64,000 nucleotides of DNA from Nannochloropsis salina CCMP1776 (lineage: Eukaryota > Sar > Eustigmatophyceae > Eustigmatales > Monodopsidaceae). The notes below the pieces were generated by a model that had not been told where the DNA came from, made no database searches, and saw only the letters and a program-made list of their open reading frames with translations. This document shows, in pieces, positions 2,383 through 28,922 of the stretch. Numbering within the stretch: position 1 is the first letter of the stretch; the number at the start of each line of letters is the position of its first letter. The position numbers were made by a program, and so were the translations under genes. Location: contig SDOX01000005.1 in NCBI GenBank assembly GCA_004565275.1, forward strand, positions 904,765-968,764, written 5' to 3'.

Positions 2383-3536
2383 GTCGTTTGATTTCAGAAG
2401 TGGGCAAATTATGCTCCAGGCCTGCGGTTGATAGATTTGGTTATTATTGGAGAGTTCTCGATATCAGATCAACGCCGCGCGTTGCTTCAATGCACATTTT
2501 ATCTCGTATTCGCACTAGGTGAAAGGACGACCTAACTATTTCGGGGTGAGTACAAACAAAGCGCTGGCTGATGTAGTGAGTGAAGCCATGTCCCACTGAT
2601 GCTCCGAGCAAGCCGCCTGATGCCCCTCCCCTTCAAGCCCGTCAAGAAGTCCTCCGGGTATCATCCGCCCATGCTCACCTCACGTCTCCGGAGTGTACGC
2701 CACCATCACTCCCTTCTCCCCACCCTACTCGACCTTGTATTATATCATGAACTGGCCGCTTATTATAGGTCTTATGTAAGTTGGGTCTTTCAAAATTCTG
2801 TCCTGTCAGAACTGGTGACGTGATCATTGTTTACCCCCTTCTTCAAATCAGGGGAGGTGTAGTTGTTTTAAACAGGACGCCGCGCACAAACAATGGTGTT
2901 TTTCAAAAGTCAAAATAGAGATTAAATTGCGACAGTTTGAAGCAGATACATAAACATCGCAAATCTGTGTGCATCAGCCCATTTGGCGGAATATTCGGCC
3001 CGACGAATAGGGCTGTTGAGGGCCACTAAGCGTGTCCTCATTTTAGGTGTATGCGTCGTAAAGGTCGCCGAAGGCTTAAAACCTTTGACATGCGAGCAAT
3101 TGGTCAACAAACAAGCTACATCTTGTAAAATAGTCATTCACACGCTGGAAAGGTAACGCGAGCGTTGCGTGCACTGCTATATATAGAAAGCAACCCCACA
3201 CCGAAATTCAGCTCACTTCTGACAGGTATGGAGGCCTTGAACTCTCTAAGTGCTGTTGATCTATATCTATGAAAGTCGAAAGTGAGTAATGATTAGAAAG
3301 TAGTTTTAGGAAGAAGATTTCAAAAATAAAGACTCCATTCAACTTTAAAAAGTATGATGTTGCAAGCTCTATTTATAGGAAGGCAATTGTTTTTGATGCC
3401 AGCTTGACAAAATCAAGTTGCTGTTTAAAATGAAACGAGTGTCCGTGCAACAATTTTACATTGAGACAAATTGAGTGGGTCACGACTTCCGTGACTTGTG
3501 AATACATAAGCTTTCCTTTCAGTGCAGCCTAGTTGT
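2383..3536. other. Upstream region of the NEET gene; no recognised gene
   Basis: Holds the NEET gene promoter on its left side and the 3' flank of the polymerase-like gene on its right. A plus-strand frame at 2599-2775 ends at a donor-like site (TAT/GTAAGT) and could be an exon, but its product is unrecognised. A TATATATAG string lies at about 3178-3186 with no clear gene after it. Confidence 0.35.
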
Positions 3537-4736
3537 TCAACTTGTGAATTGAATTGAAGGAGCTTCCACACTGCAGAGAAAGGAAGCCAACTCAGAAGCA
3601 TCGGTGAATGTGTCTAAAATCCAGCTCATGACGACCGTTCCATGTCCATGTAACCTTAATCGATGTCTTGAAATCGCTGTCGATTGCCGACACTTAAAAG
3701 CTTCCACGCATTGCTGTGCTTTCATTTTATCATCTGTAACTCGCAGTTTTGTATCCTGAGAACAAAACGGTGCAACTCTCTTCGTGGATACCTTTTGAGT
3801 CTGTCCAGAATGGGAAGCCTGCTGCGCGTTTTCGACATCGGACGGCGATGTGCGGCATTTCGAAGAGCGCATACTCCATGCGCGATTCACTGACGCGCCG
3901 AGCACGATCTCTTCTTCGTCCACGCGTATTTCTTGTCGATTGGAGCTTTCGTAGTTTTGTGAGAAAGTTCCAGATTCATCCCCATCTTCAAAAAAAAAGC
4001 CGTGTGAGGTGGGTCTCGCATCATGACCTTGACCCGAAAATGAGTTTCCATGATGCCGTCGCAGAGGTGGGCTAGGCATTGACCCGTCTCCGCGAAAAAC
4101 AAGTAGTCCCTTTGCTGTCCGGCGAGCTTCTTCTGGAGTTCTACCCACACCAAAAGTGAGACGGTAGCCAAGCAAGCGTTTTAACTCCGCTCGAAGAAAT
4201 CCGCCCAACTCTTTCGCTTGCTCTATTTCCCTAAGGTATGATGGTCTCGTGCAATCAGGTTCGGAAGTCGGCAGCGCGACGCTGTACTCGCCGAACTGCC
4301 CATCTCCAAAGTCCTCAACGAGCGTCAACCCGTCACCCTCCACGACGCGACGCAGCAGTTGAACGGGACCTTTATTGGCAACATTTTGATATTCTTGCAG
4401 CATAGAAGTAGACCGCGATCTCCACGAAGCAGCAAGGACAAGTGCAACATCAGGAAAATGTCGCATTATGAATCCTAGGGTCATATTCTGCCGAATTCCT
4501 GAGTTGAAGGCTTCGGCACTATAATCCAAAGGTGTCAGTGAGTCATCCTCAGATTCTTGCTGTTCTTTTGCTCCCAAAGTGTCTACAATGGCAAAGGCAC
4601 GGCCAATAAGGGATGGATTCATATGCTCCTCTATCTGAACGAAAAGATGCTCGAGCTTGAGAAGAAGGTGGACAGATGACCTATGGGTAGGATGTGCTAC
4701 AGGCGAAGAGCATGTTGATGCGAACATCGATAACAT
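3537..4736 (-). CDS. Degenerate Y-family DNA polymerase-like protein, probably non-catalytic
   Basis: 399 residues. The N-terminal half follows the Y-family (DinB/Pol eta/ImuB) outline. A palm start-like strand LEHLFVQIEEHMNPSLIGRAFAIVD corresponds to the D-M-D-x-F-F-x-x-V-E...NPxLxGKPxAV block. EAFNSGIRQNMTLGFIMRHFPD corresponds to YEARxFGVxxGMxxxxAxxxCP. RAELKRLLGYRLTFGVGRTPEEARRTAKGLL corresponds to the palm helix-strand with SVGIAxNxxxAKxAS. The metal-binding Asp of the first block is replaced and no S-x-D-E motif is visible where the second acidic pair should be. Catalysis is therefore unlikely, recalling bacterial ImuB, an inactive Y-family adaptor. Residues from about 230 onward are low in recognisable structure. 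The gene is head to head with the GS-like gene across 179 bp or more. It could be a translesion accessory protein or a decaying paralogue. The family call is by motif order only. Confidence 0.6.
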   Translation of the reverse strand: MLSMFASTCSSPVAHPTHRSSVHLLLKLEHLFVQIEEHMNPSLIGRAFAIVDTLGAKEQQESEDDSLTPLDYSAEAFNSGIRQNMTLGFIMRHFPDVALVLAASWRSRSTSMLQEYQNVANKGPVQLLRRVVEGDGLTLVEDFGDGQFGEYSVALPTSEPDCTRPSYLREIEQAKELGGFLRAELKRLLGYRLTFGVGRTPEEARRTAKGLLVFRGDGSMPSPPLRRHHGNSFSGQGHDARPTSHGFFFEDGDESGTFSQNYESSNRQEIRVDEEEIVLGASVNRAWSMRSSKCRTSPSDVENAQQASHSGQTQKVSTKRVAPFCSQDTKLRVTDDKMKAQQCVEAFKCRQSTAISRHRLRLHGHGTVVMSWILDTFTDASELASFLCSVEAPSIQFTS

Positions 4737-4954: not shown

Positions 4955-6715
4955 ATGCGGGATGTAGCGTTCGAAATGCTGCATAAGCTCCCCTTTTCAA
5001 CACACGGAAGTATGGCGGGTCACGGTCGGGGCGTCAGCTGTCGCCCCATTTTCCATTCTTCGACTTGCAGTCATCCCAAGCACTTTGACCGGAGCCCGCT
5101 GTGCGCACTGCAATTCGGAAATCAGGCACAGAGCTCCCCATCCTCTGTATTTACGCTTACAGCACGTCATGTGGCATCCTTTCCGGTGCATTTTCATTGC
5201 AAAATGTACCGCTATTCTGCAGGAGCAGGTCACAAGGATATGCCGCAAGAGACTAAGTATATAAATTTTCTTTGGTGCTCTCTTGCAGGGCTGCGGTGCC
5301 TCCGTGTCGTACCCGTACATACAATGTACGACAAAAAAAAGGTCGACCAGTATGCTGACATAGATGAAAACGGCTATTTTGAATGGCTCCCAAAGCCCAT
5401 GCCGTCTGTGTCTATGAGCCGTGCGTGTATTTCTCTTCCAGCTCACGAAGATACTCCAAGCCCTGATAGTGGTGTTCCCTTTGTAGGAGACATATGTTTA
5501 CAATTGGAGGATCCTATGAGCAACCTGATGTGCCTGCCGTGGCGACCTAAGCATTTTATGGGGGCTGTTCGCATGCTCGATCCCATCTCCCATGCTCCAT
5601 GGTCTCTCTGCCCACGCAGCTGTCTCGCTCGTATTTTGGAGAAAGCTCAGGTCCGACATGGTATATCGTTCCGAGTAGGATTCGAATTAGAATTTGCCCT
5701 CGCCACAATTGACGGGAAGTTTGATGACAGGCATACCTATTCATCCGCTAGAGCTTTCGACGTGGAATCGTCCCTCCTGGACGACTTGTGTGAGACTCTG
5801 TATTCAATGGGAATAGTTGTGGAACAACTTCATAAGGAGAGTGCCCCCGGACAGTTTGAATTGGTGCTTGGTCATTTGCCTGCCATGGAGGCCGTCGACG
5901 GACTGCTACTTGCGCGTGAGGCCGTGGCGGCAGTCGCGTATCGTCACCAGCGACGTGTCACCCTCTTGCCCAAGTTTCTGCCAGAGTACGCTGGCAATGG
6001 CTGCCATGTTCATTTGAGTTTATGGAAAAATGGAATCAACATTCTTTCGCTTTCTGGAGCGACGATTCATCCAGGATCCCTCGACGGTGTGCTAGATATG
6101 TACACTACATTGAGCGGTTTTTCATCACTTAATGAAACTTTCCGCCAATTTCTGGGCGGTCTTGTAGCTCTACTTCCTGCACTTATGTGCTTTACAACCC
6201 CGACTCCGAATTCTTTCAGGCGGCTGCAGCCCGGGGCTTGGGCAGGGGCATTTCAGGGTTGGGGAATCGCTAATAAGGAGGTGCCGCTCCGTTTGCCTGT
6301 ACAAACACTTGAAGACGGGCTTTTTACTAATATTGAGGTCAAGTTATGTGATTCGACTGCAAATCCCCATATAGCTCTAGCAGCAATTCTAAGTGCCGGT
6401 CTGGTTGGAGTAGATTTGGCTGCAACGTTATCCGAGGCAGATTTCGCGGAGTCGTTCGCAGCTCTCCCCGCACCGCTGGATGTAGACCCGGGACAGCTGA
6501 CATATGCCGAGCAGACTCGCCGTAAGATAAAAGAGTTGCCTCGGGAATGGTCAACGGCTAAAGCATGTCTAATGAGTCCAGAGGGAAAAGGACTCCGAGA
6601 GTTATTGGGAGAGGACATGGTCAGAGCTTGCGTAGCGATTCGCGAAAGCGAGTGGGCAGCTTTGGGGGGTATACGGCTTGAGGAAGAAATCGATCTACTC
6701 TTTGATCGATACTAG
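4955..6715 (+). CDS. FluG-type glutamine-synthetase-like enzyme
   Basis: The frame is open from 4916; the first ATG is at 4955, and a later ATG at 5204 lies closer to the domain start. The conserved part begins at KYINFLWCSLAGLRCLRVVP, the beta-grasp domain as in the C-terminal GS domain of fungal FluG. Next come LCPRSCL, FRVGFELEFAL (metal-binding Glu-x-Glu), ESAPGQFELVLG (metal Glu), GNGCHVHLSLW (ATP/metal His motif) and a C-terminal NIEVKLCDSTANPHIALAA. In canonical GS the last block is E-x-R-x-P-D; here Arg is replaced by Lys. The protein lacks the amidohydrolase half of FluG. Such GS-like ligases join ammonia or amines to the gamma-carboxylate of glutamate, but the substrate cannot be read from sequence. 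A pyrimidine run ending in CAG near 5288 looks like a splice acceptor, yet the protein alignment runs through it, so I treat it as coding. Confidence 0.8.
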   Translation: MRDVAFEMLHKLPFSTHGSMAGHGRGVSCRPIFHSSTCSHPKHFDRSPLCALQFGNQAQSSPSSVFTLTARHVASFPVHFHCKMYRYSAGAGHKDMPQETKYINFLWCSLAGLRCLRVVPVHTMYDKKKVDQYADIDENGYFEWLPKPMPSVSMSRACISLPAHEDTPSPDSGVPFVGDICLQLEDPMSNLMCLPWRPKHFMGAVRMLDPISHAPWSLCPRSCLARILEKAQVRHGISFRVGFELEFALATIDGKFDDRHTYSSARAFDVESSLLDDLCETLYSMGIVVEQLHKESAPGQFELVLGHLPAMEAVDGLLLAREAVAAVAYRHQRRVTLLPKFLPEYAGNGCHVHLSLWKNGINILSLSGATIHPGSLDGVLDMYTTLSGFSSLNETFRQFLGGLVALLPALMCFTTPTPNSFRRLQPGAWAGAFQGWGIANKEVPLRLPVQTLEDGLFTNIEVKLCDSTANPHIALAAILSAGLVGVDLAATLSEADFAESFAALPAPLDVDPGQLTYAEQTRRKIKELPREWSTAKACLMSPEGKGLRELLGEDMVRACVAIRESEWAALGGIRLEEEIDLLFDRY

Positions 6716-6929: not shown

Positions 6930-8454
6930 ATGCTTTTGAGAGGAACGCAGGCATACCTGAAGCCGCTTTTTGTCGGCTGCTTCTTACTACCTCGCCTCAC
7001 TTCCACGCCGCTGGCATTTGTGAGTTCTATGTCACCAGCCAGCAAGCATCTCAGAAATGAGTCGCGCATTCTGTCTCCGCCTACAACGCATAAATATGGT
7101 AAGTGCTTACCCAATAAAAGCGGCCGCGATATAGTGTCGGAAAGGTCTAAATTGCAGGAAGGATGGCAGTGGAGACATTTACACGCCCCTTCTCTCCTGC
7201 ATTTTGATCCCAACTGATTCTTCATCTACTCGTTCTCGATTTGAAGATGGTGCGGATAATTATTCAAGAGCATGTAATCAAGCGTGCCACGAAGAGGGAC
7301 CTCGCCTGTCAGAAGCATCTACAAGACAAGTGGTCCTTTCCACCTTTCCTGCCCGACCCTTCGAGCCTTTGCCTTGGGTCAGAAATGAGCACTGGCAAAC
7401 AATATGGGGCGCCAGAGTTATTCAAGATATGACGCTGAAGAAATTTGCTTCTGAGTCCCTGCCGAAGGGATGGCAGGACGTGTATGACAGGCGGGAGCGG
7501 TGGGATACGCCCGACGGAGATTTCTTTCATGTGGACTTTCTTTTTAGTCACGTGCCTCCTTCGGGCCCTCCCTCACAACCTCGACCTATGGCTATTGTAC
7601 TACACGGACTAGAATCTACTTCCTCGGCAATCCTACCCAGATCAATGGCAAAAGCCTTTGCGCGACGGGGCTTTGATGTCCTAGCTCTCAATTTCCGTGG
7701 TTGCTGCGGCACTGAGAATCTTAAAGCTTACTCATATCACTTGGGTTTTACAGATGACCTAAAATTTGCCATTCAGCGCTTGTTTGCTGAGGAGCCGCGA
7801 CGCCGCATATACCTCACCGGCTTCTCTCTGGGAGGGAATGTGATCCTTAAGTGCCTGGGAGAGCTCGGGGAAGAAGCGGCAAGCATGGGTGTACAGGGGG
7901 CTGCCGTCGCATGTGTGCCCTTTGATGCCGTGCGATCTTCCAGCAAAATTGACACCGGCTTCAATCGTTGGGTATACGCGGCCAACTTTCTGTCAACATT
8001 GAAGGTCAAAGCAGCAAAAAAGTATGAGACACATCAACGGCACCGGGAAGGGAAAGGAGTGGACAAGGAGCTGTATGACCTGGATCGGGTTTTGGCCTGC
8101 TCCACTATAGGCGATTTTGACGACGAGGTTGTTGCGAAGTTGCACAAATTTGAGGATAAAATAGATTATTATCGACAGAGCTGTTCAAAGCAGTACCTTC
8201 CATTAGTACGGATTCCCGCATTGGTCATTAACTCGCGGGATGATCCATTCATCAATGAAGCGGGATTACCTACTCCGGAAGACGTCGGAGATGGGACGGT
8301 TCGCTTGATTTACCATAGCTATGGAGGACATTGCGGTTTTCTCACAGGACAGGAAAAAACGAGCCATGAGGACGAGCGATGGCTACCCACGGAGCTCGCA
8401 CGATTTTTAGAACATGTAGATCGACCATTCCGCGAAGCGAAATGTGAAAGTTGA
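6930..8454 (+). CDS. YheT/EMB8-family alpha/beta hydrolase, probably plastid-targeted, two exons
   Basis: The main frame (7204-8454) has no usable ATG near its start. A signal-like exon at 6930-7098 ends at a strong GTAAGT donor. Joining it in phase to the acceptor at 7245-7246 (intron 7099-7246, 148 bp) gives 458 residues with no frame break; this acceptor is my choice and other AGs are possible. Residues 1-30 form a hydrophobic leader ending PLA/F, the heterokont plastid presequence type. The body starts LPWVRNEHWQT, the family hallmark. It continues with the oxyanion-region VLHGLES, nucleophile elbow GFSLGGN (Ser about 250), NSRDDPF (Asp about 388) and GGHCGFL (His about 418), a complete triad. 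YheT/EMB8 enzymes are serine hydrolases, generally esterase- or lipase-like; in plastids such proteins may act on membrane lipids. The substrate is not known from sequence. Confidence 0.82.
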
Positions 8455-8565: not shown

Positions 8566-11496
8566 TTACTTCTCGCTTCCTTCGAGTCGGTCGTCGTCTC
8601 TTTCGCGCGGGCCATTTTCACCCATGGATGAAACCTTAGAAAGCAGTGCGCAACAGTAATGGTGAGGCAAACAATGCGGACAGCAGCACTGACAAGCGCA
8701 CATGGAACAGAAGGCAAGGATGAACAGTGCGACGGCGCTTAGCATGTAGGGTAAATAGGATTCGTCGTTATCTGGATCTCGTCCATTCTCAAAAGCGGAC
8801 ACGACAGAAAAATCATTCGTGGTCACATTGATTTGTAGCTCCGTGATAAGACATCCTTTTGTGTGGCTAGATCCTCCTTTCAGAACTTGCGCTTGAAGGC
8901 AAGGACCACCGACCCCATCGTAGACGGTGATCGTTATGTAGTCATTGACGCGCGGGACAGTTGAGGCGTAGGTCAGGCCATTAAGCAAGGACTCCAGATT
9001 CAAGGGCAGAGCCACAAACATCAACAAGCTTGACGTTTTTTCCAAGCAATTGTTGGAACAGTACTTGGCCGACGTGAAGTCGGCCAGCCCGATGAAGGCT
9101 TCATTTAAACGTATACGCCCGTATGTGCACGCAATTCTCACCAAGACGGGATCGACACCTAGGTCTGGATCATGCACCGACATTCCCTGCAAAACTACCT
9201 GCGTTGGGAAATCTCCAGTGTGCGTGACATTGTTGATGCTTATGGTGGCGTAGATAGTGTAGTTATGCGTGGTCAACTCCAAGGAAGTTTCATCGTTTTC
9301 ATTGCGAACCACAACTTTCTGTTCCTCAGAAAATGATGATGGCAGCGCAAATGATTTATGAATACTTGCAAATGTACATGACACAACCCGAAAGTCAAAG
9401 CCGTCTTCCAGTCCGCTTTCAGTGAACAGTGCGGTGCCGTTCCACGTACGATTTGGCCATGTAAAAAAACCAGCGTCAGACATGTAATGGAGCGTGACAC
9501 CCACGTCGTAGGGAGGGCTCGACGTCTGCTCCGGTAGTTGGAACGGCACGGAGTCCAAGGAGCTGACCGTTCCATTCGCGGCAATCGTGTACAAAGTGCC
9601 ATGGCGTGGCAAGCGTGTGATCTCAAAGCATATGTCACGGCGTTGTACGCTTTGGTAGTCTGCACCGAATAATGTGATCGGAGTCAGAGTATGCTCCTGT
9701 ACAATTGGCCAAGGGACGGCTGGCAAGGCTACAAGTGAAGGTGTGATCAGAATCCTGACGAGCGCAGGAATCGATTGGGTGTTGAAGTCATCGGTGACCG
9801 TGTAAGTGAAGGAATCATTCCCAAGCATACTGCGTGAGGTGGTATCCGCGCTACGACTAGTGCTGTTGTCCTTGGCAGCTTGGGGTAGTGTTTGTGGACC
9901 TGTAAAGAAGTAAGCGACCTGTGCTGGCATCGCAGGGGCAGTCAAGATCTCATCTCCGACGATCAGAGGCGAGGTAGCATTGGTATCATTTACTCGATAC
10001 AGGTAGCCGTGAGTCGGCAGTGAGGCTACTCGAGCTGAAACGATGCGAAATCCCCCATATGCTATCCCTTCAAGCGCCACAGGCGTAAGCCTGGCCGCCA
10101 TTGCCACCAGCGACACATTAGAAGTGTTGTTGGTATGATTGGAACCGTTGCCGGCGATAGGAATTTGATGCACGGCTTTGACGTACACGGAAATTGTGGC
10201 TGTATCGCTGGCGAGGCCTGTGACACCATCCACAGCGAAAACCTCGAAGGTTGTGTAGATATGAGGCCAGGACACTTCCTTCCAGCCTGGTCTAAATCTC
10301 AGCTGAGTAGTGAAGGTGCCATTCAAAGAAGCGCCGTTTCCGCGTGGCGATTCGACGGCCAAGGCGATCGGCAACGATCCGTGAATGGCGGTGCCATTCA
10401 TGAAATAGAGCGTCCCGTTGGCGGGGAGGGTTGCCAAGCAAAGGCCCGGAAATGTGATCGGCGAAGCTGAAGCGTTGTAGTTGGGACTGGAAGGGTCGTG
10501 ATCTCCATCCAGGACCACGAGAGTAAGGCTAACAAGCTCGTCTACAGGAACAGGACTGAGGTAGAACTCAGGTGTATCGTAATGCGAGCCTACTTCACCA
10601 TTTTCTTGTACCACGTGAGAGGCATCCTGGACGATGGGCGGGCTGTTCGGGACCCGAGCTGCATAATTCTGAGCTATTTCTTCGGGAGAAAGGACTCGAT
10701 TGTACAAGGCCCAGAGGTAGATGTTGCCACAGAAAGGTTTTGAGGTGCGAAGTGCCATATCAGGAGGCTGTGAAAAAAAGAATAATCGGCTGTTTGGGCT
10801 GATAGTTATCCTGACATCAATAACACCATCATTGATAGCTTGACCATTGATATATAGCAAGCAATAATGACGGCCTGCTGTATCAGAAAACGGATCTGGC
10901 TCGCAGGTGTATACGATGTGCAGATTCCCCGGCGGAGTATCTCTCAATGAGGGTCCAGGCATAGATGTTGACTCATCACTGCCTGTAATCACCCGTAAAA
11001 CTCCTGCTTGTATAACCAAAGCTAAGTCAGGTGCTATTGTATTCACACTAGGAAAATCCATGGTAAAAATGATATACGTTTTCTCATCATTATAAGCGAT
11101 AAGATTGTGACGCATCCATGTTTCCACCGTGAAAGTCTGCGATGTTGTAAATATACCGGCCCAGTCTGCGGTCGATGCTGTCGAAGAGACGCGCTCAATA
11201 AATTCGGGGATGGAGTCTGAGTTTGTTATGCCGTCCCCAGACTCACGACAAAACGATCCGTTTACTAACAGAGAGCCAAAGAGTGGCCTCTCAGGCGAGC
11301 TCGAATCGGGTATTGTACCGGAAAAGCAGGCATCGTGATCGAAGATAAATAAGGCAATTTCGTCCGATGTACGATCATTCAGGATGGCCAACGACTTGCT
11401 GAAGAGTATGGAAACGGCATAAAGAAATTGCAGCAGCAAACGGACAGGAGGTCGACGCAAACCTAACACCTGGGTGACGCTTTTTTGTCTCGACAT
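8566..11496 (-). CDS. Large surface-type type-I membrane protein, paralogue A (LamG-like head, cadherin-like repeats)
   Basis: Start set at the ATG at 11496, because the longer frame begins with GTG. The product has 976 residues. It has an N-terminal hydrophobic leader (about 14-38), then a ConA/LamG-like beta-sandwich head to about residue 260. Tandem bacterial-cadherin-like beta-sandwich units follow, showing LPxHGTLY, GNDSFTYTVTDD and NxT/S sequons. A membrane segment lies near residue 910 (YLPYMLSAVALFILAFCSMC), followed by a Cys-rich stretch (CACQCCCPHC) and a charged cytosolic tail. Residues encoded by 10713-9389 are identical to the same region of paralogue B; head and tail are homologous but strongly diverged. 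The role is likely cell-surface adhesion or recognition, inferred from architecture. No named family was recognised. Confidence 0.8.
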   Translation of the reverse strand: MSRQKSVTQVLGLRRPPVRLLLQFLYAVSILFSKSLAILNDRTSDEIALFIFDHDACFSGTIPDSSSPERPLFGSLLVNGSFCRESGDGITNSDSIPEFIERVSSTASTADWAGIFTTSQTFTVETWMRHNLIAYNDEKTYIIFTMDFPSVNTIAPDLALVIQAGVLRVITGSDESTSMPGPSLRDTPPGNLHIVYTCEPDPFSDTAGRHYCLLYINGQAINDGVIDVRITISPNSRLFFFSQPPDMALRTSKPFCGNIYLWALYNRVLSPEEIAQNYAARVPNSPPIVQDASHVVQENGEVGSHYDTPEFYLSPVPVDELVSLTLVVLDGDHDPSSPNYNASASPITFPGLCLATLPANGTLYFMNGTAIHGSLPIALAVESPRGNGASLNGTFTTQLRFRPGWKEVSWPHIYTTFEVFAVDGVTGLASDTATISVYVKAVHQIPIAGNGSNHTNNTSNVSLVAMAARLTPVALEGIAYGGFRIVSARVASLPTHGYLYRVNDTNATSPLIVGDEILTAPAMPAQVAYFFTGPQTLPQAAKDNSTSRSADTTSRSMLGNDSFTYTVTDDFNTQSIPALVRILITPSLVALPAVPWPIVQEHTLTPITLFGADYQSVQRRDICFEITRLPRHGTLYTIAANGTVSSLDSVPFQLPEQTSSPPYDVGVTLHYMSDAGFFTWPNRTWNGTALFTESGLEDGFDFRVVSCTFASIHKSFALPSSFSEEQKVVVRNENDETSLELTTHNYTIYATISINNVTHTGDFPTQVVLQGMSVHDPDLGVDPVLVRIACTYGRIRLNEAFIGLADFTSAKYCSNNCLEKTSSLLMFVALPLNLESLLNGLTYASTVPRVNDYITITVYDGVGGPCLQAQVLKGGSSHTKGCLITELQINVTTNDFSVVSAFENGRDPDNDESYLPYMLSAVALFILAFCSMCACQCCCPHCLPHHYCCALLSKVSSMGENGPRERDDDRLEGSEK
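9389..10713 (-). repeat. Inverted repeat arm 1 (1,325 bp, within paralogue A)
   Basis: Reverse complement of 15855-17179. Paired coordinates keep a constant sum (26,568) from end to end, so there is no indel. The only mismatch I found is G at 9496 (C on the coding strand) against T at 17072, a silent Val codon change; I did not compare every base. Identity ends abruptly at both edges: the next bases outside differ and the encoded proteins drop to weak similarity. The arm encodes about 441 residues of the cadherin-like region. Confidence 0.95.
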
Positions 11497-12490
11497 CTGG
11501 ATTTCAATATGGTATGTAGGATAGCACACACTTTCAAATGAGAGTCTTCATACTATTTATTGATACTATTTGCATGGCTAATTGCATGTGTACGTATGTC
11601 AAACGAGATCGACGAATTGATATCGAGCGTGAGCGACGAGCAGTATGGGCCAGTGACAGCTGACTCGAGATGACATGTTGCCGAAGTGCCGAACGCTCTC
11701 CGACGGACGGGTTCGGACGGGCTCGGGCGTACAGTACAGTAGAGTACATATGCTTTGAGATGCTGATACCACACGTCAAAGTACTCTTCGCATTCAACAC
11801 TGAGAGCTTGTCGATTATATAACTTAAGCAAGAAACACTTGTCAATTACTTTGATTCCCAGAAAAGTGACAGCTTGCCTACATGTGCCAGTAAACGGCTT
11901 TCAAAACTCGCATGAGAATCAGTTTCAGAGTGAGATTCAAGAATCGCTAGCACCCCATTGCTGGTGGCAGGGATATATGCATGGCTCTACCGAAAAATAT
12001 ACACATTTCTAGCAGTCATAATCCATCAAATCTGCGACCACGACGGCCAACGAAATGCTATGTGATCGAATCTGAAAAGCTGAAAAAGGCACATGCTGTA
12101 ATAATCTTGGGTACGTTGCGGTAACGATGATGAACAAATCTTACTGCTCGAAAATTTCCCCAAAAAAACATACACACTATGCAATGCGTCCGCTCAGGGT
12201 ATAATATATTGAGGGCGTACAATTAAATCGAAAGGATAGACACCAAGTAAAGATGGGTTAGGGTGGCAGAGATCGGACAGTTCTGCGAAAGAATGAGTGG
12301 ATGCATAGTTGCCACCCTTTATCTTACACAAAATCGCTCACAAACTTTGGTTAGTCAAAGCATCACTGTTTTTCACTCATCGCTTGGACTTGAAAGCCGA
12401 GGACAACTCCGTCATATCTGAACCAATTGCCCTTAAAATAGCCATCTTTAAAACAAGCTCATCTCGTCATTGTAGATATTTTATTTATTT
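11497..12490. other. Region upstream of paralogue A and downstream of the RBM25-like gene
   Basis: Promoter side of paralogue A on the left and 3' flank of the RBM25-like gene on the right. A perfect 9-bp inverted repeat (AGGGTGGCA at 12260-12268, TGCCACCCT at 12310-12318) could form a stem-loop with a 41-nt loop. A 25-codon frame at 11596-11673 reads like protein but is too short to support. Confidence 0.35.
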
Positions 12491-14200
12491 TTATTGGCAC
12501 TCGATCGTGTAATATATCAATATTCTCCAGAGCTTCTCAATGAAAATATCCGCTTCGTCATCAAAAACCAAGCGTAGCTCGGCAAGTAGTTTGTTGGGAT
12601 GACAATGGCTTGTAAGTTTTGAACATATAAACTCTATTACAGTATTCTCCTCTTCCCCGAGAAGTTCTATTACCTTCGATGCGACCCAGGCTCGCAATTT
12701 ACTTGACACGAGACTGTTTTTATCTACAGCGACCCAATCGACCGGGTACATAAAAAGGGCTTTTCTATCCTGCGGTATTTTGCTCACAAGTCGCATCTGA
12801 CGCTCACATAATGACTTGAATTTGCGTATCTTTGCGCCACAATGCCTCGATGCGTTCGAAGAAGCGTCTTTAGACCATCTCTGATCATTCTTTGCCTGCT
12901 TTTGCTCTGTATTCTTCTTCAAAGGCCCTAATTCGTCAGCCGCCGGGGGCTTTGTGTCATATGATGTCCTCATATTGCTTTCACCGACATCGAGCATTAC
13001 GCAAGTATCGACTTCCCGTAATATTCCTGGAAAATCAACCGTTCTTTGGCCGTCTCTTTTTTGAAGGCACTGCGAGCCATGAGAATGACATGTAAGCAGC
13101 TCGGCGCCAGTCACATCATTGCTGCCAATCTTTTCGTCATTTAAGCAGCAGCACCCGGACGCTTCTTCGCAACCGTCCCTTGCTTTACTTTTGCTAATTT
13201 CGCGCATCTCTTCTGCTGCACAATTCGGGACCTTCATCTTTGCCTCTCTTAGAATACAGTCTACCGTCTCATTTTTGCGCTCTTTTTGTCGAAAATCCAA
13301 GCGCTCTTGCTCCTCCGCACGATGCCGAAGCTCCAGTAATCGATGTTTCTCCTGCAGACGACCACGCTCTGCCTCGGTTGTTCGAAAACGCTCCAGCTCG
13401 CCTAAAACGAGCAAGTCGTGTGCAGTACTTTTTTGTATACCGCTGAGGGACGATGAAGGGTCCCAACCCCCGGTCAAGAGCTCTTTCCTCGACCCACATC
13501 CGCTGCCACAGCCTCCTTCTTCCTCTGCCCCATGTTTACACCGTTGCCGCTTCGCAGATGCTCGAACCTCCCCTTCCCCAGCATGTACGCGCAGGTGTTG
13601 TTGTTCTATGATACTTGTTAATCGTTCTTTTGTGATTTTATCCTGGGCTGCATCCTGTTCGCTGACAGCTAACTCGACCAAACGCGCAAGCTCCTTGTTG
13701 TCCAATTTGACGAGAACCGGTTGGCAGTCCAATTTGACCCCGTTCATCAGTTCAAGGCATCGCCTGGCGTAGTTCGGCTGGGCATATTGGCAGAAGCCGA
13801 AACTTTTACCCACAGCTCGCTTCCATTCAAGTATTTTCCCGCACTGCTCTAGCAGGGTGTAGATTACGTAGTCCGGGACCGTTGGAGGTAGTCTTCCCAC
13901 AAAGACTGTCATTGGGTCATCCTCTCTTCTATGTGAGGATACTAGTACTTGTGCTGTACTTGAACACTCTGTCGCGTGGACTCGTCCGTTCTCAGCTATG
14001 ATGTCACAGTTGTGCCTCAGGCTATCGGCTGCATGATCAGAAAGGGATGCTTCGCTAGCTCTCAAAAGACCAGACGCAGCTTTATCAGCTGGTGGGGAGA
14101 TAGTTGCGGTTGTTTCGTGAGAAAGATAAGTCTGCGAAGATACGATATTTTTGGGCAGAAAGAAGGGTGGTGGGGCACCGCGTGGTGGATCACGGGTCAT
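12491..14200 (-). CDS. RBM25: RBM25-like splicing factor (RRM + PWI)
   Basis: 569 residues. One RRM spans about residues 97-172: RNP2 is VFVGRLP and RNP1 is KSFGFCQYA, followed by LVKLD. A long charged, Glu/Arg/Lys-rich middle follows, with a helical segment rich in RxRxEEQERLDFRQKER. The C-terminal PWI domain covers about 470-569 (YPVDWVAVD, LRAWVASKVIELLGEEENTVIEF, then a helix ending at the stop). This order is that of human RBM25 and its yeast counterpart Snu71, U1-snRNP-associated regulators of 5' splice site choice in the nucleus. The middle is shorter than in animals. ATG 14200 is supported by an in-frame TAG upstream and by a TTTTTTACAG acceptor ending at 14240, implying an intron in the 5' untranslated region. 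The gene lies within the spacer of the inverted repeat pair. Confidence 0.85.
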   Translation of the reverse strand: MTRDPPRGAPPPFFLPKNIVSSQTYLSHETTATISPPADKAASGLLRASEASLSDHAADSLRHNCDIIAENGRVHATECSSTAQVLVSSHRREDDPMTVFVGRLPPTVPDYVIYTLLEQCGKILEWKRAVGKSFGFCQYAQPNYARRCLELMNGVKLDCQPVLVKLDNKELARLVELAVSEQDAAQDKITKERLTSIIEQQHLRVHAGEGEVRASAKRQRCKHGAEEEGGCGSGCGSRKELLTGGWDPSSSLSGIQKSTAHDLLVLGELERFRTTEAERGRLQEKHRLLELRHRAEEQERLDFRQKERKNETVDCILREAKMKVPNCAAEEMREISKSKARDGCEEASGCCCLNDEKIGSNDVTGAELLTCHSHGSQCLQKRDGQRTVDFPGILREVDTCVMLDVGESNMRTSYDTKPPAADELGPLKKNTEQKQAKNDQRWSKDASSNASRHCGAKIRKFKSLCERQMRLVSKIPQDRKALFMYPVDWVAVDKNSLVSSKLRAWVASKVIELLGEEENTVIEFICSKLTSHCHPNKLLAELRLVFDDEADIFIEKLWRILIYYTIECQ

Positions 14201-15056
14201 GTTGAGCGGCGGTCCCGGCGTCGGAGTGAGCTATTGACCCTGTAAAAAAGGAATTTGAGGCGTTAAATCAAACAAACTTAGTTGTACGTAAGTAGCAAGG
14301 ATACTGGGCGCCATCAATGCCAAGCATGGTAATTTCCCATCCGCTGACTTTGCTTCCTCAGACCTAGCGGAGGAAGGCGCAGCATGCATTGCATTACAGG
14401 CTAGGAGAAAGCCGCACAAGAGCCGTCACGGTGGTGGGGCCACGTCCTAGCTCAGGAGAACCTATTTACGACAAGACCAGATGTGTGGGTCACAGCTTCT
14501 GGACTGACGCGCACGCGAAACACCATTTAGGAGCTCATCGACGGCTGCGTCCGACAGGGCGGGCAAGATTGCCGCTAGACGAGCCAGAGGGGGCGGACGA
14601 GCTTGCTGAGGGCTGTCGACTGCCTCCTGACCCCACGCCGCTCGAGTTCAGTGGTGAAAAGCACCGTTCAGTCCACGTCACACGAATATATCAATACTCT
14701 AGAGAAATAAGTCTTTTGGACTGTCGCATCCCCGATATGTTGAAAACACTCTCCTTGCAAAGGCCCAAAAGCTACGTTCCTGACCCGCATTTTTGGTCGG
14801 AATCGTCGACATGCGACCGAGAGCTCAACAGGGTAAATTACGCCGCCGCCACAAAAGAAATGCAATATTTGAAAGCCATGAAAAAAAAATCCGACATAAA
14901 CTGGTCCCTTCTTGCACCATTCTTGCTTATTCGATACATGCGCTAACATTCGATTAGAACTTTGGCTATAATTTTCATGCATACTGTGTTGACCCTTTTT
15001 TCCCCTTCTCCACTGATTTCATCATATTTTAGCTATCACCGCGTGCCCAGATTGTT
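14201..15056. promoter_or_regulatory. Divergent region between the RBM25-like gene and paralogue B
   Basis: Contains the putative 5'-UTR intron of the RBM25-like gene (acceptor at 14240 on the minus strand) and the promoter of paralogue B. A GC-rich stretch at about 14420-14660 has open frames on both strands. One minus-strand frame gives a helix-like LARLAAILPALSDAAVDELL, possibly an exon of an unidentified gene, but I cannot assemble one. A 185-codon plus frame at 14389-14946 looks non-coding. Confidence 0.35.
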
Positions 15057-17987
15057 ATGCAGGTAACTTTTTTTTTAGCTGGGCTCTTTTGTACCTTGGA
15101 TAGCTTTGCACATTTTTCTACTGTCTTGGCAAGCTACCAAAGGCAAGTAAGTCCGGAAGTTATTTTCTCAATGGGCCATGACGAATGTCTCGCTGGTGAT
15201 GTTTTAGATGGACAACCACTGAACGCACTCGGTTCGTTACATTTGAATAAAGATTGGATTTCATGTCTAAATGGCGACGGCATTGAGCATATCAGCCGTT
15301 TTGAATCGCCCATAGAAGCTGATGTCAGTTCTGAAACAGGGCCTCCTGAAGGGGGCTTTGCGTATGCCTTATCTCCTTTTGACAACCTTAGCACGCCTAC
15401 AGTGAGAAACATGTCGATTCAGGTATGGCTGAGCGTACATTCTAACTGGACTGATCATCAGATGGCCGTCATTTTCTCGGTGGGAAATGAGAGCATGTTT
15501 CGTCTAAAATTAATCCAAAAGAATGCAAAGCTTTTTATCAAGTTTACGGCACCACAAGGCACATTCGGCGCTGCCACTCTCGACATAAGCTTTCCGCTGC
15601 CCTACAATACACCACCTACAGCGATTTGCTTGGTTATAACTGCAGAAACGAACTACATTTCAATGGCGGGGACACCTCGGCAACGCATCGTACATCGGGT
15701 GTATGTCAATGGGGTTCACAATGCAAGTGAGAATCAGCGAAGTGCGCTCGACGGCAGACTCACGTATTGGGATGCAACAGACCGCTTGTTTTTCTTTTCT
15801 GAACCATCATTTTTAAGCACCGAAACAGTTGAGTGGTCCGGAAGGTTGTTCGAATGGGCCTTGTACAATCGAGTCCTTTCTCCCGAAGAAATAGCTCAGA
15901 ATTATGCAGCTCGGGTCCCGAACAGCCCGCCCATCGTCCAGGATGCCTCTCACGTGGTACAAGAAAATGGTGAAGTAGGCTCGCATTACGATACACCTGA
16001 GTTCTACCTCAGTCCTGTTCCTGTAGACGAGCTTGTTAGCCTTACTCTCGTGGTCCTGGATGGAGATCACGACCCTTCCAGTCCCAACTACAACGCTTCA
16101 GCTTCGCCGATCACATTTCCGGGCCTTTGCTTGGCAACCCTCCCCGCCAACGGGACGCTCTATTTCATGAATGGCACCGCCATTCACGGATCGTTGCCGA
16201 TCGCCTTGGCCGTCGAATCGCCACGCGGAAACGGCGCTTCTTTGAATGGCACCTTCACTACTCAGCTGAGATTTAGACCAGGCTGGAAGGAAGTGTCCTG
16301 GCCTCATATCTACACAACCTTCGAGGTTTTCGCTGTGGATGGTGTCACAGGCCTCGCCAGCGATACAGCCACAATTTCCGTGTACGTCAAAGCCGTGCAT
16401 CAAATTCCTATCGCCGGCAACGGTTCCAATCATACCAACAACACTTCTAATGTGTCGCTGGTGGCAATGGCGGCCAGGCTTACGCCTGTGGCGCTTGAAG
16501 GGATAGCATATGGGGGATTTCGCATCGTTTCAGCTCGAGTAGCCTCACTGCCGACTCACGGCTACCTGTATCGAGTAAATGATACCAATGCTACCTCGCC
16601 TCTGATCGTCGGAGATGAGATCTTGACTGCCCCTGCGATGCCAGCACAGGTCGCTTACTTCTTTACAGGTCCACAAACACTACCCCAAGCTGCCAAGGAC
16701 AACAGCACTAGTCGTAGCGCGGATACCACCTCACGCAGTATGCTTGGGAATGATTCCTTCACTTACACGGTCACCGATGACTTCAACACCCAATCGATTC
16801 CTGCGCTCGTCAGGATTCTGATCACACCTTCACTTGTAGCCTTGCCAGCCGTCCCTTGGCCAATTGTACAGGAGCATACTCTGACTCCGATCACATTATT
16901 CGGTGCAGACTACCAAAGCGTACAACGCCGTGACATATGCTTTGAGATCACACGCTTGCCACGCCATGGCACTTTGTACACGATTGCCGCGAATGGAACG
17001 GTCAGCTCCTTGGACTCCGTGCCGTTCCAACTACCGGAGCAGACGTCGAGCCCTCCCTACGACGTGGGTGTTACGCTCCATTACATGTCTGACGCTGGTT
17101 TTTTTACATGGCCAAATCGTACGTGGAACGGCACCGCACTGTTCACTGAAAGCGGACTGGAAGACGGCTTTGACTTTCGTGTGGTAGAATGTTTTGCAGC
17201 AAAGAATGGTCAACTTTCCGTGTCACTTCCTTCAGAGCAACAGATTATAGTTCAAAACGTTAACGATCCCACGCAAATCACCGCACCTCCAGCTTTGCCA
17301 TTTTCAGTGCTAGGACTTGGCGCCCTTGATGATGACACTGGTACAAACGAGCACAATGAAGACTCTCAAAAAGAAGACGTGCTAAAACTCTCAGGTTGGC
17401 GCATACTGGACGTCGATAAAGATGTAGATCCAACGCTGGTCCACATCAGGGCATTTTACGGCATCGTGCGCCTAAATCAATTATATTTGTCCCTCGCAGA
17501 TTTTACCTCACTTAGATGCCAAAAGACTCGCGAGAATAACGAAAGCAGCATAGCTGCGGTAGAAGGGTCCTCTCATCTTTTATCGAATTGTCAAGGAAGC
17601 GGTGAGGACAGATTTATGGCGTTCGTGACTACGCCCGGTCACTTAAGTCTGCTGTTAGAAGGAATGGAATATCGCTCTATTGTCACCAATGTAGTTGACA
17701 CTGTAAGTGTGACGATATTCGATGGAAAGACGCAAAATGGTGGCCAAGATGGCTGTTTAGCCATGCACGCTTTCAACTCCACATCTCTTCTGAATAGTTG
17801 CTGGGTGACGACAGCAAATTTGACCGTTGAAGTGGGCACCTCTGCATTGTTATCCCACTTACAATTCTCAAACAGTAAAGAGCGTCTGCCTGTTACTTTA
17901 TGGTTTGCATGCGGAGGGGGTACATTATTCATAATCCTAGCTGGATCAACATTCATTTTGATGCAGCGTAAAACGATGTCTGCATGA
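15057..17987 (+). CDS. Large surface-type type-I membrane protein, paralogue B
   Basis: 976 residues from ATG 15057. A clear N-terminal signal peptide (about 1-25, VTFFLAGLFCTLDSFAHF) is followed by a ConA/LamG-like head (to about 265) ending FEWALYNRVLSPEEIAQNYA, the typical last strand and helix of LamG-type sandwiches. The cadherin-like repeat region shared with paralogue A follows, then a diverged C-terminal part. Near the end are a membrane segment (LWFACGGGTLFIILAGSTFIL) and a very short basic tail. Tails differ: A has a Cys-rich, charged cytosolic end, B almost none. Many N-glycosylation sequons lie in the shared core. Likely secretory-pathway delivery to the cell surface; the ligand is unknown. 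The encoded segment from 15855 to 17179 is the second arm of the inverted repeat. Confidence 0.82.
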   Translation: MQVTFFLAGLFCTLDSFAHFSTVLASYQRQVSPEVIFSMGHDECLAGDVLDGQPLNALGSLHLNKDWISCLNGDGIEHISRFESPIEADVSSETGPPEGGFAYALSPFDNLSTPTVRNMSIQVWLSVHSNWTDHQMAVIFSVGNESMFRLKLIQKNAKLFIKFTAPQGTFGAATLDISFPLPYNTPPTAICLVITAETNYISMAGTPRQRIVHRVYVNGVHNASENQRSALDGRLTYWDATDRLFFFSEPSFLSTETVEWSGRLFEWALYNRVLSPEEIAQNYAARVPNSPPIVQDASHVVQENGEVGSHYDTPEFYLSPVPVDELVSLTLVVLDGDHDPSSPNYNASASPITFPGLCLATLPANGTLYFMNGTAIHGSLPIALAVESPRGNGASLNGTFTTQLRFRPGWKEVSWPHIYTTFEVFAVDGVTGLASDTATISVYVKAVHQIPIAGNGSNHTNNTSNVSLVAMAARLTPVALEGIAYGGFRIVSARVASLPTHGYLYRVNDTNATSPLIVGDEILTAPAMPAQVAYFFTGPQTLPQAAKDNSTSRSADTTSRSMLGNDSFTYTVTDDFNTQSIPALVRILITPSLVALPAVPWPIVQEHTLTPITLFGADYQSVQRRDICFEITRLPRHGTLYTIAANGTVSSLDSVPFQLPEQTSSPPYDVGVTLHYMSDAGFFTWPNRTWNGTALFTESGLEDGFDFRVVECFAAKNGQLSVSLPSEQQIIVQNVNDPTQITAPPALPFSVLGLGALDDDTGTNEHNEDSQKEDVLKLSGWRILDVDKDVDPTLVHIRAFYGIVRLNQLYLSLADFTSLRCQKTRENNESSIAAVEGSSHLLSNCQGSGEDRFMAFVTTPGHLSLLLEGMEYRSIVTNVVDTVSVTIFDGKTQNGGQDGCLAMHAFNSTSLLNSCWVTTANLTVEVGTSALLSHLQFSNSKERLPVTLWFACGGGTLFIILAGSTFILMQRKTMSA
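15855..17179 (+). repeat. Inverted repeat arm 2 (1,325 bp, within paralogue B)
   Basis: Matches the reverse complement of 9389-10713 without gaps, apart from the difference at 17072. Arms are separated by 5,141 bp (10714-15854) that hold the heads of both paralogues and the RBM25-like gene. Both arms keep the same codon phase, so recombination between them would keep both reading frames intact. Confidence 0.95.
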
Positions 17988-25184: not shown

Positions 25185-28100
25185 ATGAAGAATCAAAATA
25201 CGCAATTGATGCAATCCGGAGATCAAAGCAATCCGATGGACATGCGACATGGTTCCCTGACGGGATCGCCCGATGTAAAAATATTCTTTCCTGCTTTATC
25301 GTCAGCCGTCAATGATGGGAATGAGCCTCAACATGAGCAGTATAACACGTTTTCTCGCCATTTCCTCCGTCCTGATAAGATAAACCAGTGGCAAGAGCTC
25401 AACACTTGTCCCACTGCCGGGTCCGGCTCTACTTCTCCGGAAGCATCCTCTTCGACGAGTCCTCAAAGACAGGGCACTAAGGCGGACGTCAACCCAGACG
25501 TTGCGCTTTATTCTTCATCCTCGTCTTCGTCCTCGTTCGCGTCGTCCCCGTCGACGAGTGCTACGAGTCCCGCGTCTAGAGCTCAGGCTCCTGTGGCCCT
25601 TCCTGCATCGTCCTCCGTATTTTTGGGCTCTTTTCCTTTCCATACACAGCATTCAGCGACAGCAAGAAGGGGCGATGATCCAATCAATGCGGGCGTGGTG
25701 CAGTGTCCGCTGCCGGCGACAACTGCCGCACGTCCCGCAACTGGGACGAATACGAACGGTGTTGCGGAGGTGGATCTTCCTGGGCAAGATTTGCTTCCCC
25801 CCCGGACATTTTGGGAATCACGCAGTCCAACTTGGATGAGCCGAGAAACAGCACCCGCCTCATCTTTCGTGAAGCAGGCCGGAGCGCCGAACTCCTCGTG
25901 TTCCATGCCCTCCTCTTCTTCATGCGCCTCCTCCTCTTCTTCCTCTTCATCGTCTTCCTCCACGTCGCCAACCCTTGAGGGCCTATTAACTCTGAAGCAG
26001 ACAAGTGCATCGGGACAGGAAAGGAGAGAACACGTGGCAACTGACACCTCTATCTTTTCGTCGTCTCTCTCATCCAATGCGCCGCCATGCCACGTGGCCC
26101 AAGCCTTTGAAGTTACCTCTGAGCCTGGGTACAAAACCAACTTATCTCATTTTCAAGAGACGCCGTCAAACTACCGTTGGGCCTTTAACAGCCACGGGGA
26201 CTCGGGACTCCATCACTCCGCCTGGCAGACAGGAACCTTGGAGGCGCAAGGTGCCGGTACAATCTGTTTTCCTGGGAGTAATGCGCACGTGCTTGCCCTC
26301 GAGAAAAATCCTACAGATAGACACGGGCCTCGAGGAAGTAGAACCACTACTGATGCGACATTTCCCTTTGACGTGGTCACTTTGGAGACCAAAAATGGAA
26401 TTGCGGTAGGAAATTGTGCCTCCCGTGAAACTCAACCTAGCACCGCTTCTCGAGAAATGAACCGTCAGCATTCGCAAAAGCAGCGTCATCGGCAGCGCCA
26501 GCCCCGACAAAATTGCCACCAGCACGCCTCGACGCAAGAGCATGTCGATTATCTGCCAATTCGCGAGAATATGAAAGGGAAGAGATTCGGGCATGCGTCT
26601 ATGACAATACCGGACGGTAACCGACAAGTTCGTAAGCCTTTCCAGGAGGATTCTCTAGTCTCGGCCTCGGAATCACAAGAAATTGATCCCAATTCGTGGA
26701 GCTCAGTCAAGCAGGCCCAAACCTTATCACCATATGAATCGCTTCCCCTGCAGTATCCCTTACGGGAGAATGACTTGCTCACGGACCCTTTACTGTCTCC
26801 TGTCTTCCGATTTCTGCCGAATGAGGTATTAGATGGCACGCCCACCACACAAGCACAACAGCGTCTGAAAAAGCAGGAGGATGAACAAGAGTCTGAGAGT
26901 TTCATCCAGTATTCACGAACGATGTCTTCGAAACCTGTGCCTTCCGTCAGCACACAGGATTTGTGCCGGAGTACAAATAGCTGCGCCTCTGCATTCAAAT
27001 CATTTGCAAACGCTGGAGATGAGGAAGGGGCGGAGGAAGCACTCTGCAAGCTAAAAACTCAGAATGGTAGACCAGGCGTATATTTATACAACGCTTTGTT
27101 GAACACTTATGCTTCCAATGGCAATTCTGAAGGCGCAGAAGCGGTACTAAATCGCATGAAAGATGACGAAGCAGAATTCGGATTTGGGCCAGAAAAGGCA
27201 GTGGAGCCAAATGTAGTGACGTATTCTTCTCTCATGACCGCCTATGCGATTAAAGGCCATAGCGAGGGTGCTGAACATGTTCTCGCGCGCATGCAGGTAG
27301 CCGGTGTGCAGCCCAATCTTGTCACTTACAACAGCCTTGCGACGGCATACGCTAAAGGCGGGAATTGGCAAGGTGCAACCCAGGTGCTCAAGCGCATGCA
27401 GCAGAGCCAGCAACTTGAGCCAACTGTTACGACTTATAATGCTGTCCTCAATGCACATGCGAACAAGGGTCACTGGAAAGGCGCGGAAGAAGTTGTTCAA
27501 CATATGAACGAGAGCAATGTGCAGCCGAATACTACAACTTTCAACACGTTAATAGATGCCTATGCGAACAAAGGCAATTGGGAGGGTGCCGAGGATGTAC
27601 TGCGACGCATGAACAAGCTGAACGAAGTTGAACCCAACGTCATATCCTTCTCGTCTGTGATAAACGCATACGCCCACCGGGGAAACTGGCATGGTGCTGA
27701 GAATGTGCTACGCCGGATGCAGTATCAAGGCTTGCAACCAAATTTGATCACCTACAACAGTCTGGTCACCGCTTACGCCAAGGAGGGCCACTGGCAAGGT
27801 GCTGAGGATGTACTGCGACGGATGCATGCAAACCCGCATGTAGAACCCAATACGACAACTTACAATTTGGTCATCAACAGCTATGCAAATAAAGGTCATT
27901 GGAAAGGAGCGGAAGACGTCCTTAGGCGCATGCTTACGGTAGGACATTCTCGTGGATCAGGAGGCAGCAGCAGTGCCATTGCGCCAACTGTCATGACGTA
28001 CAATTCGCTGATCAATGCGCACGCCAAAGATGGAAACTGGCAAGGCGCAGAGGACGTCCTTCGACGCCTTTTGGAGAGAGGAGTAGAGCCAAACGTCACA

Positions 28101-28922
28101 ACCTTTAATTCGGTGATTAAGGCGTACACAAAGGAGGGTCACATCGAAGGTGTGGAGAATGTCCTGACTCGCATGACGGATGACTTCGGGTTAAAAGCAA
28201 ATGTGACGACCTGGTCATCAATCATTAATGCGTACGCGACACGTGGTGACTTTGTCGGGGCTGAGGACGTACTCCGACGGATGCAGGAGCACGGAGTGGA
28301 GCCGAACATTACGACCTTTTCCTCCGTCATAAATGCCTACGCCAATAAAGGCCATTGGGTTGGTGCTGAGAGTGTTTTGAGCCGGCTGGAGGTAAAGGGT
28401 CTAGAGCCAGATGTAATCACTCACAACAGCATGCTGAAGGTATATGTCAACGCCCGTGACGTGGACGGATGCGGAAGAGGGCTGGATTTAGTGCGTCGTT
28501 TGCTCGAAGGCCGTCGACATAAACCTACCCATGTGACCTTCAAGACCTTGTTTACGCTACTTCTTAAGCATCCTGACCCACGCAAGCTACAGACAGCTAT
28601 GAAACTGCTTGATGACCACGTACCCGCACGTTCCCGTACTTCACTTGTATATGCTCCGTTAATTGAATTGTGTGGAGCCACCGGCCGCGCAGACGCAGCG
28701 GTACGCTATTTTGAAGAGGCGCGTCGCGGGGGCCACTTGGACAAGTATGTGGTGCGTGCGGCGAGGGCTGCTGGAATGATCGTCGGAGGCCCTTGTGGGA
28801 TTGGTGATAATGGATTTAGGGGCCGAGGACGGCATTATGCCCGCCAAAGTCATTCTCAGCAAAACGCGGCATCGACATTTGCGAGTGTAGCATCGCTGAG
28901 CAGCAGCTTGGAGACGTTGTAG
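25185..28922 (+). CDS. P-class PPR protein with about 13 tandem repeats and a long disordered N-terminus
   Basis: 1,245 residues from ATG 25185. The first 620 residues are Ser/Gln/Pro-rich with poly-Ser runs. From about residue 623 to 1090 come some 13 pentatricopeptide repeats of about 35 residues, unusually uniform: each has a (V/L)xTYN(S/T)LxxAYAxxGxWxGAEDVLRRM helix pair and a PN-type turn. Repeat starts include 27080, 27203, 27308, 27416, 27521, 27629, 27737, 27845, 27989, 28094, 28202, 28307 and 28412, approximately. PPR proteins bind single-stranded organelle RNA, one base per repeat, and control its processing, stability, splicing or translation. The N-terminus does not look like a plastid or mitochondrial presequence, so either an upstream exon is missing or the location is unusual. 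A helical region after the repeats ends in a Ser-rich tail. Confidence 0.9.
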   Translation: MKNQNTQLMQSGDQSNPMDMRHGSLTGSPDVKIFFPALSSAVNDGNEPQHEQYNTFSRHFLRPDKINQWQELNTCPTAGSGSTSPEASSSTSPQRQGTKADVNPDVALYSSSSSSSSFASSPSTSATSPASRAQAPVALPASSSVFLGSFPFHTQHSATARRGDDPINAGVVQCPLPATTAARPATGTNTNGVAEVDLPGQDLLPPRTFWESRSPTWMSRETAPASSFVKQAGAPNSSCSMPSSSSCASSSSSSSSSSSTSPTLEGLLTLKQTSASGQERREHVATDTSIFSSSLSSNAPPCHVAQAFEVTSEPGYKTNLSHFQETPSNYRWAFNSHGDSGLHHSAWQTGTLEAQGAGTICFPGSNAHVLALEKNPTDRHGPRGSRTTTDATFPFDVVTLETKNGIAVGNCASRETQPSTASREMNRQHSQKQRHRQRQPRQNCHQHASTQEHVDYLPIRENMKGKRFGHASMTIPDGNRQVRKPFQEDSLVSASESQEIDPNSWSSVKQAQTLSPYESLPLQYPLRENDLLTDPLLSPVFRFLPNEVLDGTPTTQAQQRLKKQEDEQESESFIQYSRTMSSKPVPSVSTQDLCRSTNSCASAFKSFANAGDEEGAEEALCKLKTQNGRPGVYLYNALLNTYASNGNSEGAEAVLNRMKDDEAEFGFGPEKAVEPNVVTYSSLMTAYAIKGHSEGAEHVLARMQVAGVQPNLVTYNSLATAYAKGGNWQGATQVLKRMQQSQQLEPTVTTYNAVLNAHANKGHWKGAEEVVQHMNESNVQPNTTTFNTLIDAYANKGNWEGAEDVLRRMNKLNEVEPNVISFSSVINAYAHRGNWHGAENVLRRMQYQGLQPNLITYNSLVTAYAKEGHWQGAEDVLRRMHANPHVEPNTTTYNLVINSYANKGHWKGAEDVLRRMLTVGHSRGSGGSSSAIAPTVMTYNSLINAHAKDGNWQGAEDVLRRLLERGVEPNVTTFNSVIKAYTKEGHIEGVENVLTRMTDDFGLKANVTTWSSIINAYATRGDFVGAEDVLRRMQEHGVEPNITTFSSVINAYANKGHWVGAESVLSRLEVKGLEPDVITHNSMLKVYVNARDVDGCGRGLDLVRRLLEGRRHKPTHVTFKTLFTLLLKHPDPRKLQTAMKLLDDHVPARSRTSLVYAPLIELCGATGRADAAVRYFEEARRGGHLDKYVVRAARAAGMIVGGPCGIGDNGFRGRGRHYARQSHSQQNAASTFASVASLSSSLETL

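Follow-up and report, generated by a model that had tools for sequence, protein, structure and literature searches.

Genes A and B and their shared core

The window analysed here is a stretch of 64,000 nucleotides from Nannochloropsis salina CCMP1776 (contig SDOX01000005.1, positions 904,765 to 968,764), in which two divergently transcribed paralogous genes, called A and B below, carry a near-identical middle part between strongly diverged ends. Gene A (8566..11496, minus strand) and gene B (15057..17987, plus strand) each have an open frame of 976 amino acids (aa) starting from ATG. In both, a Laminin_G_3-like head recognised with Pfam is followed by the shared core and then by a tail, which in gene A includes a hydrophobic stretch and is rich in Cys at its end, and in gene B has a short end.

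Data from a repeat finder (minimum 60 bp, seed 16) gave a single inverted repeat in the window, with arms at 9376-10713 and 15855-17192, and no direct repeats. Base-by-base pairing of these arms showed an ungapped core of 1,325 bp with 1 mismatch, at 9389-10713 in gene A (minus strand) and at 15855-17179 in gene B (plus strand); among the 13 bp that the repeat finder had added past one core edge, 5 were mismatched. The sole mismatch within the core (9496, partner 17072) falls on codon position 3 of a Val codon (A, GTC; B, GTT) and is silent. In A as in B, the core begins with the first position of a codon, and its edges lie at homologous positions, in frame and without insertions or deletions, on both sides. 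By the arm coordinates, a unique spacer of 5,141 bp (10714..15854) with both heads in it lies between the arms, and inverted, near-identical arms around such a spacer match the flip/flop arrangement known from yeast (see below). GC content of the window is 50.9%, and it holds no N. The inverted repeat with its near-identical core is real.

Divergence of heads, core and tails

Codon alignment of the two genes showed abrupt changes of identity along their length. The heads (10714..11496, minus strand, in A; 15057..15854, plus strand, in B) match each other by blastp with E=1.5e-7, and over 238 aligned codons they have 26% aa identity, with 23.1% of third positions and 5 of 27 fourfold sites alike. 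Values for the tails (8566..9388, minus strand, in A; 17180..17987, plus strand, in B; blastp E=1e-19) were similarly low, with 33% aa identity over 236 aligned codons, 27.5% of third positions alike and 9/34 fourfold sites alike. In the core, all 442 codons specify identical amino acids, third positions are 99.5% alike (440/442), and 252 of the 254 fourfold sites agree; one of the two third-position differences is the first base beyond the 1,325 bp. Synonymous divergence (dS) of the core is very low (~0.003, interval 0.0001-0.017), corresponding to 1 change in ~329 sites.

Silent sites of the flanks are at the random level, i.e. saturated, and heads and tails are still detectably homologous. 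Flank DNA identity, taken as the mean over the three codon positions of the alignment, averages 37% for heads and 41% for tails. The longest word common to the heads is 12 bases, at non-corresponding places, and that common to the tails is 9 bases; control shuffles (30 each) gave a mean of 9.2 bases and a maximum of 11. At each core edge the step in identity is confined to one 25-codon window. An earlier reading of this DNA, made from the sequence only, had claimed gapless arms at 9389-10713 and 15855-17179 with a single silent mismatch, strongly diverged heads and tails, and very sharp edges. Its coordinates and mismatch count are exact, and the saturated silent sites and narrow identity steps agree with the rest of that description.

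On this alignment, the core is a homologous tract within old paralogues and not as an unrelated insertion. Near-identity at silent sites of the core against saturation outside it indicates that the core was exchanged long after the duplication. A tract that is near-identical even at silent sites, between flanks that are homologous but far more diverged, is what ectopic gene conversion leaves.

Copy number and genomic background

When the arm was used as DNA query against the 26.5-Mb genome, it was found at two places only, both of them these arms. With gene B as protein query, only A and B were returned (E up to 0.01), and the genome yielded no third core that might have been displaced. Self-comparison of 284 kb around the window (C70:694765-978764; blastn, 16-base words, E up to 1e-10) also returned this pair only. 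The sole N run in these 284 kb starts at C70 772490, is 8,275 bases long and may be an assembly gap. In one published table, Nannochloropsis assemblies are listed with 26.9-35.5 Mb and 53.7-54.6% GC (PMC3886936), so that the GC content of the window is somewhat lower.

Relatives of the separate parts were also searched for. Laminin_G_3 has 4 matches genome-wide, namely A, B and one each on C52 and C35. In this search A and B score 29.5 and 29.1 bits, both over the curated cut-off of 27.6 bits; in the Pfam search of the two genes, B scored 28.8 bits (over the cut-off) and A 26.1 bits (under it). The Laminin_G_3 frame on C52 was tried as an outgroup and rejected, with a weak best blastp E of 0.22 and no phmmer match for the A head, the B head or the core. 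For the core, a viral contig collection gave no pattern match, which carries little weight since the patterns were those of close relatives, and a genome contig collection gave 11 pattern matches, none of them confirmed by tblastn, which also carries little weight as these collections hold viruses or prokaryotes.

Other repeated sequences were seen in the same genome. In a light-harvesting gene cluster on C6 (C6:826501-836500), two arms of 899 bp (3017-3915 and 4995-5893) form an inverted pair with 3 mismatches, and a third copy at ~6932-7833 lies in direct order relative to the second, with 98% identity over 1,853 aligned columns. A young duplication explains this pair as well as conversion does. 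Searched for in the genome, the light-harvesting family had 34 matches, with each exon counted by itself. One of the light-harvesting proteins aligns to PDB chain 8zo9_2 (VCPI-2) at E=2.9e-136, with 205/223 positions identical, VCPI being the name of a Nannochloropsis antenna; for another antenna protein of the genome (L005), best matches were diatom-type FCP chains. Within the window, two long open reading frames (ORFs) on the same strand, at 25185-28922 and 44269-47637 (C70:929949-933686 and 949033-952401), gave several overlapping matches to each other (21-22% aa identity), suggesting that the proteins have internal repeats.

Protein features and the gene in the spacer

Pfam searches gave no family of note in the core (DUF2505 at E=0.22, under its cut-off) and no match in either tail. 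A search of PDB sequences with gene B found no match at E up to 1, and an AlphaFold2 model from a two-row alignment was too poor for use (mean predicted local distance difference test score, pLDDT, 26.6). Hydrophobic stretches over the threshold begin at residue 913 in A and at residue 944 in B, both near the C-terminal end; gene A also has nine Cys at residues 930-949. N-glycosylation motifs number 20 in A and 24 in B. The spacer contains a further gene with RRM and PWI domains (12491..14200, minus strand; Pfam PF01480 E=1.4e-12, PF00076 E=4.5e-8), which we regard as a bystander.

Probable gene conversion between the arms

Our preferred explanation is that A and B are old inverted paralogues whose middle has been kept alike by gene conversion between the arms, most likely repeatedly since the duplication; we give this a probability of roughly 0.6. 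An inverted duplication long ago would have produced genes A and B, possibly encoding membrane-anchored proteins with a laminin-G-like head. Gene conversion, i.e. non-allelic homologous recombination, between the arms would then have kept the middle alike, most likely in repeated events. Heads and tails would have left conversion early and diverged to saturation, and the convertible zone would have shrunk to whatever stayed alike. Some events may resolve as crossovers, by which the spacer inverts and the heads swap between the tails. We infer that conversion was recurrent and not single, and that it was mitotic; membrane anchoring and crossover resolution are put forward in the same sense. According to PMC6610115, Nannochloropsis is monoploid and asexual and is capable of homologous recombination.

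The divergence of the flanks argues for this explanation. With 37-41% identity and no long shared words, the flanks are too different for ordinary homologous recombination, so that recombination can act only within the core, and this limit produces sharp edges. Conversely, a late one-off conversion of a core that had become as diverged as its flanks would be hard, which favours repeated conversion. The sequence-only reading had proposed that the core was homogenised recently, most simply by gene conversion. Recent homogenisation by conversion is well supported by the saturated homologous flanks, the near-identical silent sites of the core, the in-frame edges and the presence of two copies; to be added is that repeated conversion since the duplication is more likely than one late event, as late exchange between diverged cores would be hard.

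Several observations weigh against our explanation or parts of it. A raised GC content in the converted tract is a common, though not obligatory, mark of long-term conversion. GC content at third codon positions (GC3) is 0.56 in the core, 0.44-0.45 in the heads and 0.42-0.54 in the tails, but the core value was reached by 273 of 449 control windows, which overlap and come from predicted ORFs and not from checked genes (N run excluded). The excess of core GC3 over the rest of the gene is 0.065 in A and 0.130 in B, and in 16 further long ORFs it was 0.033-0.165 for the best windows. Core GC3 is hence not unusual among other ORFs, and GC-biased conversion is not supported. The gene B protein search also gave no third paralogue that could serve as an outgroup to tell donor from acceptor. 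Moreover, an oppositely oriented pair of related ORFs elsewhere on C70 (780960-781934, plus strand, and 782464-783504, minus strand), ~0.5 kb apart and with 36% aa identity over 329 aa, has no near-identical DNA block, showing that inverted neighbourhood alone is insufficient for homogenisation. As to membrane topology, a hydrophobic stretch near the start is over the threshold in A and under it in B, and one within the core is also over the threshold; A and B might at most be type-I membrane proteins. Lastly, a single genome cannot prove repeated homogenisation, and a single event leaves the same present-day pattern, so that recurrence is favoured and not established.

Alternative explanations

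This last point leads to the main rival, in which one core was copied over the other just once and recently, by conversion or template switch, without recurrence. Such an event would yield the same pattern in one genome, the low dS (one change in 329 sites, with its wide interval) fits one recent event, and the GC mark of long-term conversion is not seen. However, cores as diverged as the flanks would offer little homology at which exchange could begin and end, and the edges at either end would hardly come to lie at homologous positions and in frame. A single conversion would have to work through homology islands since erased, and we consider it possible but clearly the less probable course. 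Very sharp edges would also follow if a recent partial duplicate of the core had been inserted non-homologously over the corresponding part of the paralogue. Since both edges are homologous, in frame and without insertion or deletion, this would take an exact swap by chance, and we think it very improbable. Selection holding the core protein identical without any exchange agrees with identical core proteins in both genes, but not with the silent sites: all but one in 1,325 bp are identical next to silent sites at the random level, which excludes both chance and selection on the protein only. Furthermore, the core holds no Pfam domain of note. Selection alone is practically refuted.

Assembly has to be considered for two separate features. 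The sequence-only reading had named an assembly error around the repeat as an option, and the 1.3-kb arms do exceed short reads; similar inversions have, by the account in PMC9731477, been overlooked because standard short reads do not resolve repeats. For core identity, mis-assembly or cross-polishing as the sole cause is nevertheless a poor candidate. Reads from diverged cores would assemble apart, a displaced third core is missing from the genome, one difference between the arms is retained, and the window is free of N, with a single N run in the surrounding 284 kb. Cross-polishing could have erased a few true differences, and the low divergence may be understated. For the joining of heads to tails, the option stands: mis-assembly could mis-join them, and their pairing depends on reads longer than the arm.

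Comparison with known systems

Inverted paralogues under gene conversion are documented in yeast and Drosophila. In the flip/flop system of Saccharomyces chromosome XIV (YNL018C/YNL034W), as described in PMC9731477, the near-identity of inverted-repeat paralogues is likewise credited to gene conversion, and crossovers there invert the DNA between them; the authors cite a figure of ~4% of conversions resolving as crossovers. The yeast repeats are ~4.2 kb long with two gene pairs and a 24-kb spacer, and comparison of many strains and species established recurrence. In contrast, our repeat is 1.3 kb and wholly coding, the gene ends are diverged, inversion would give domain-swapped proteins, and only one genome was used. 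The Drosophila Hsp70Aa/Ab and amylase genes in PMC3924832 are also linked mirror-image paralogues, with ectopic gene conversion between them. There, identity between paralogues is high and conversion was shown by species comparison and shared polymorphisms, whereas here the likeness is confined to the middle, with saturated heads and tails, and a single species is compared.

In the human inversion HsInv0241, as presented in PMC3961182, inversion between the inverted paralogues AQP12A and AQP12B exchanges the first exon between the genes. At our locus both heads and tails differ, so inversion would create new head-tail pairings, and this inversion was made in silico only. Primate X-chromosome palindromes are inverted repeats likewise kept alike by gene conversion, but they are described as large and with GC above that of their flanks (PMC8981503), whereas the short arms here have a GC content that does not stand out in the genome. 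In PMC3750441, on plastid inverted repeats, the features that in higher plants are read as pointing to gene conversion are said to be missing. Among the matches listed in a search of the Nannochloropsis literature there was no nuclear inverted paralogue pair of this kind, which is not proof of absence.

Possible inversion and head-tail swapping

With the arms in inverted orientation and sharing one reading frame, any crossover from one to the other would flip the 5,141-bp spacer and some arm sequence along with it. An inversion made in silico, using a single breakpoint within the arms, gave a B-head/A-tail protein of 981 aa and an A-head/B-tail protein of 971 aa, both with open frames; boundary genes thus stay open after the inversion, as in flip/flop systems. 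After such a flip, the region upstream of each head would stay with it, while its tail would come from the other gene. Arms of 1.3 kb would suffice for general homologous recombination, with no need of a dedicated recombinase. Spacer inversion in nature may then occur, judging from this geometry.

A bolder version takes the core as a hinge for recombination. Recurrent flips of ~5.1 kb in a haploid asexual alga would re-pair two laminin-G-like heads with two tails, the Cys-rich and longer one of A and the short one of B, and populations would carry two reciprocal sets of membrane proteins. We regard this as unlikely on present evidence. If true, the locus would be the eukaryotic equivalent of an invertible coding switch that works without a recombinase, with the homogenised core as both cause and product of flipping.

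Implications

The locus is a real and clean example of inverted paralogues homogenised within the gene, a kind already known. What is unusual is that the tract has saturated coding sequence at either side, together with the potential for a domain-swapping hinge. As a warning, head-tail pairing at such loci hinges on the assembly method. The locus is small enough for conversion and inversion to be measured by polymerase chain reaction. If conversion is recurrent, it would be an ongoing process that keeps one coding segment alike while the rest of both genes has diverged, probably in a genus said to be monoploid and asexual. If the spacer flips, each event would make two domain-swapped proteins with frames intact, and one could test cleanly at this locus whether protein diversity arises from inversions between homogenised paralogues.
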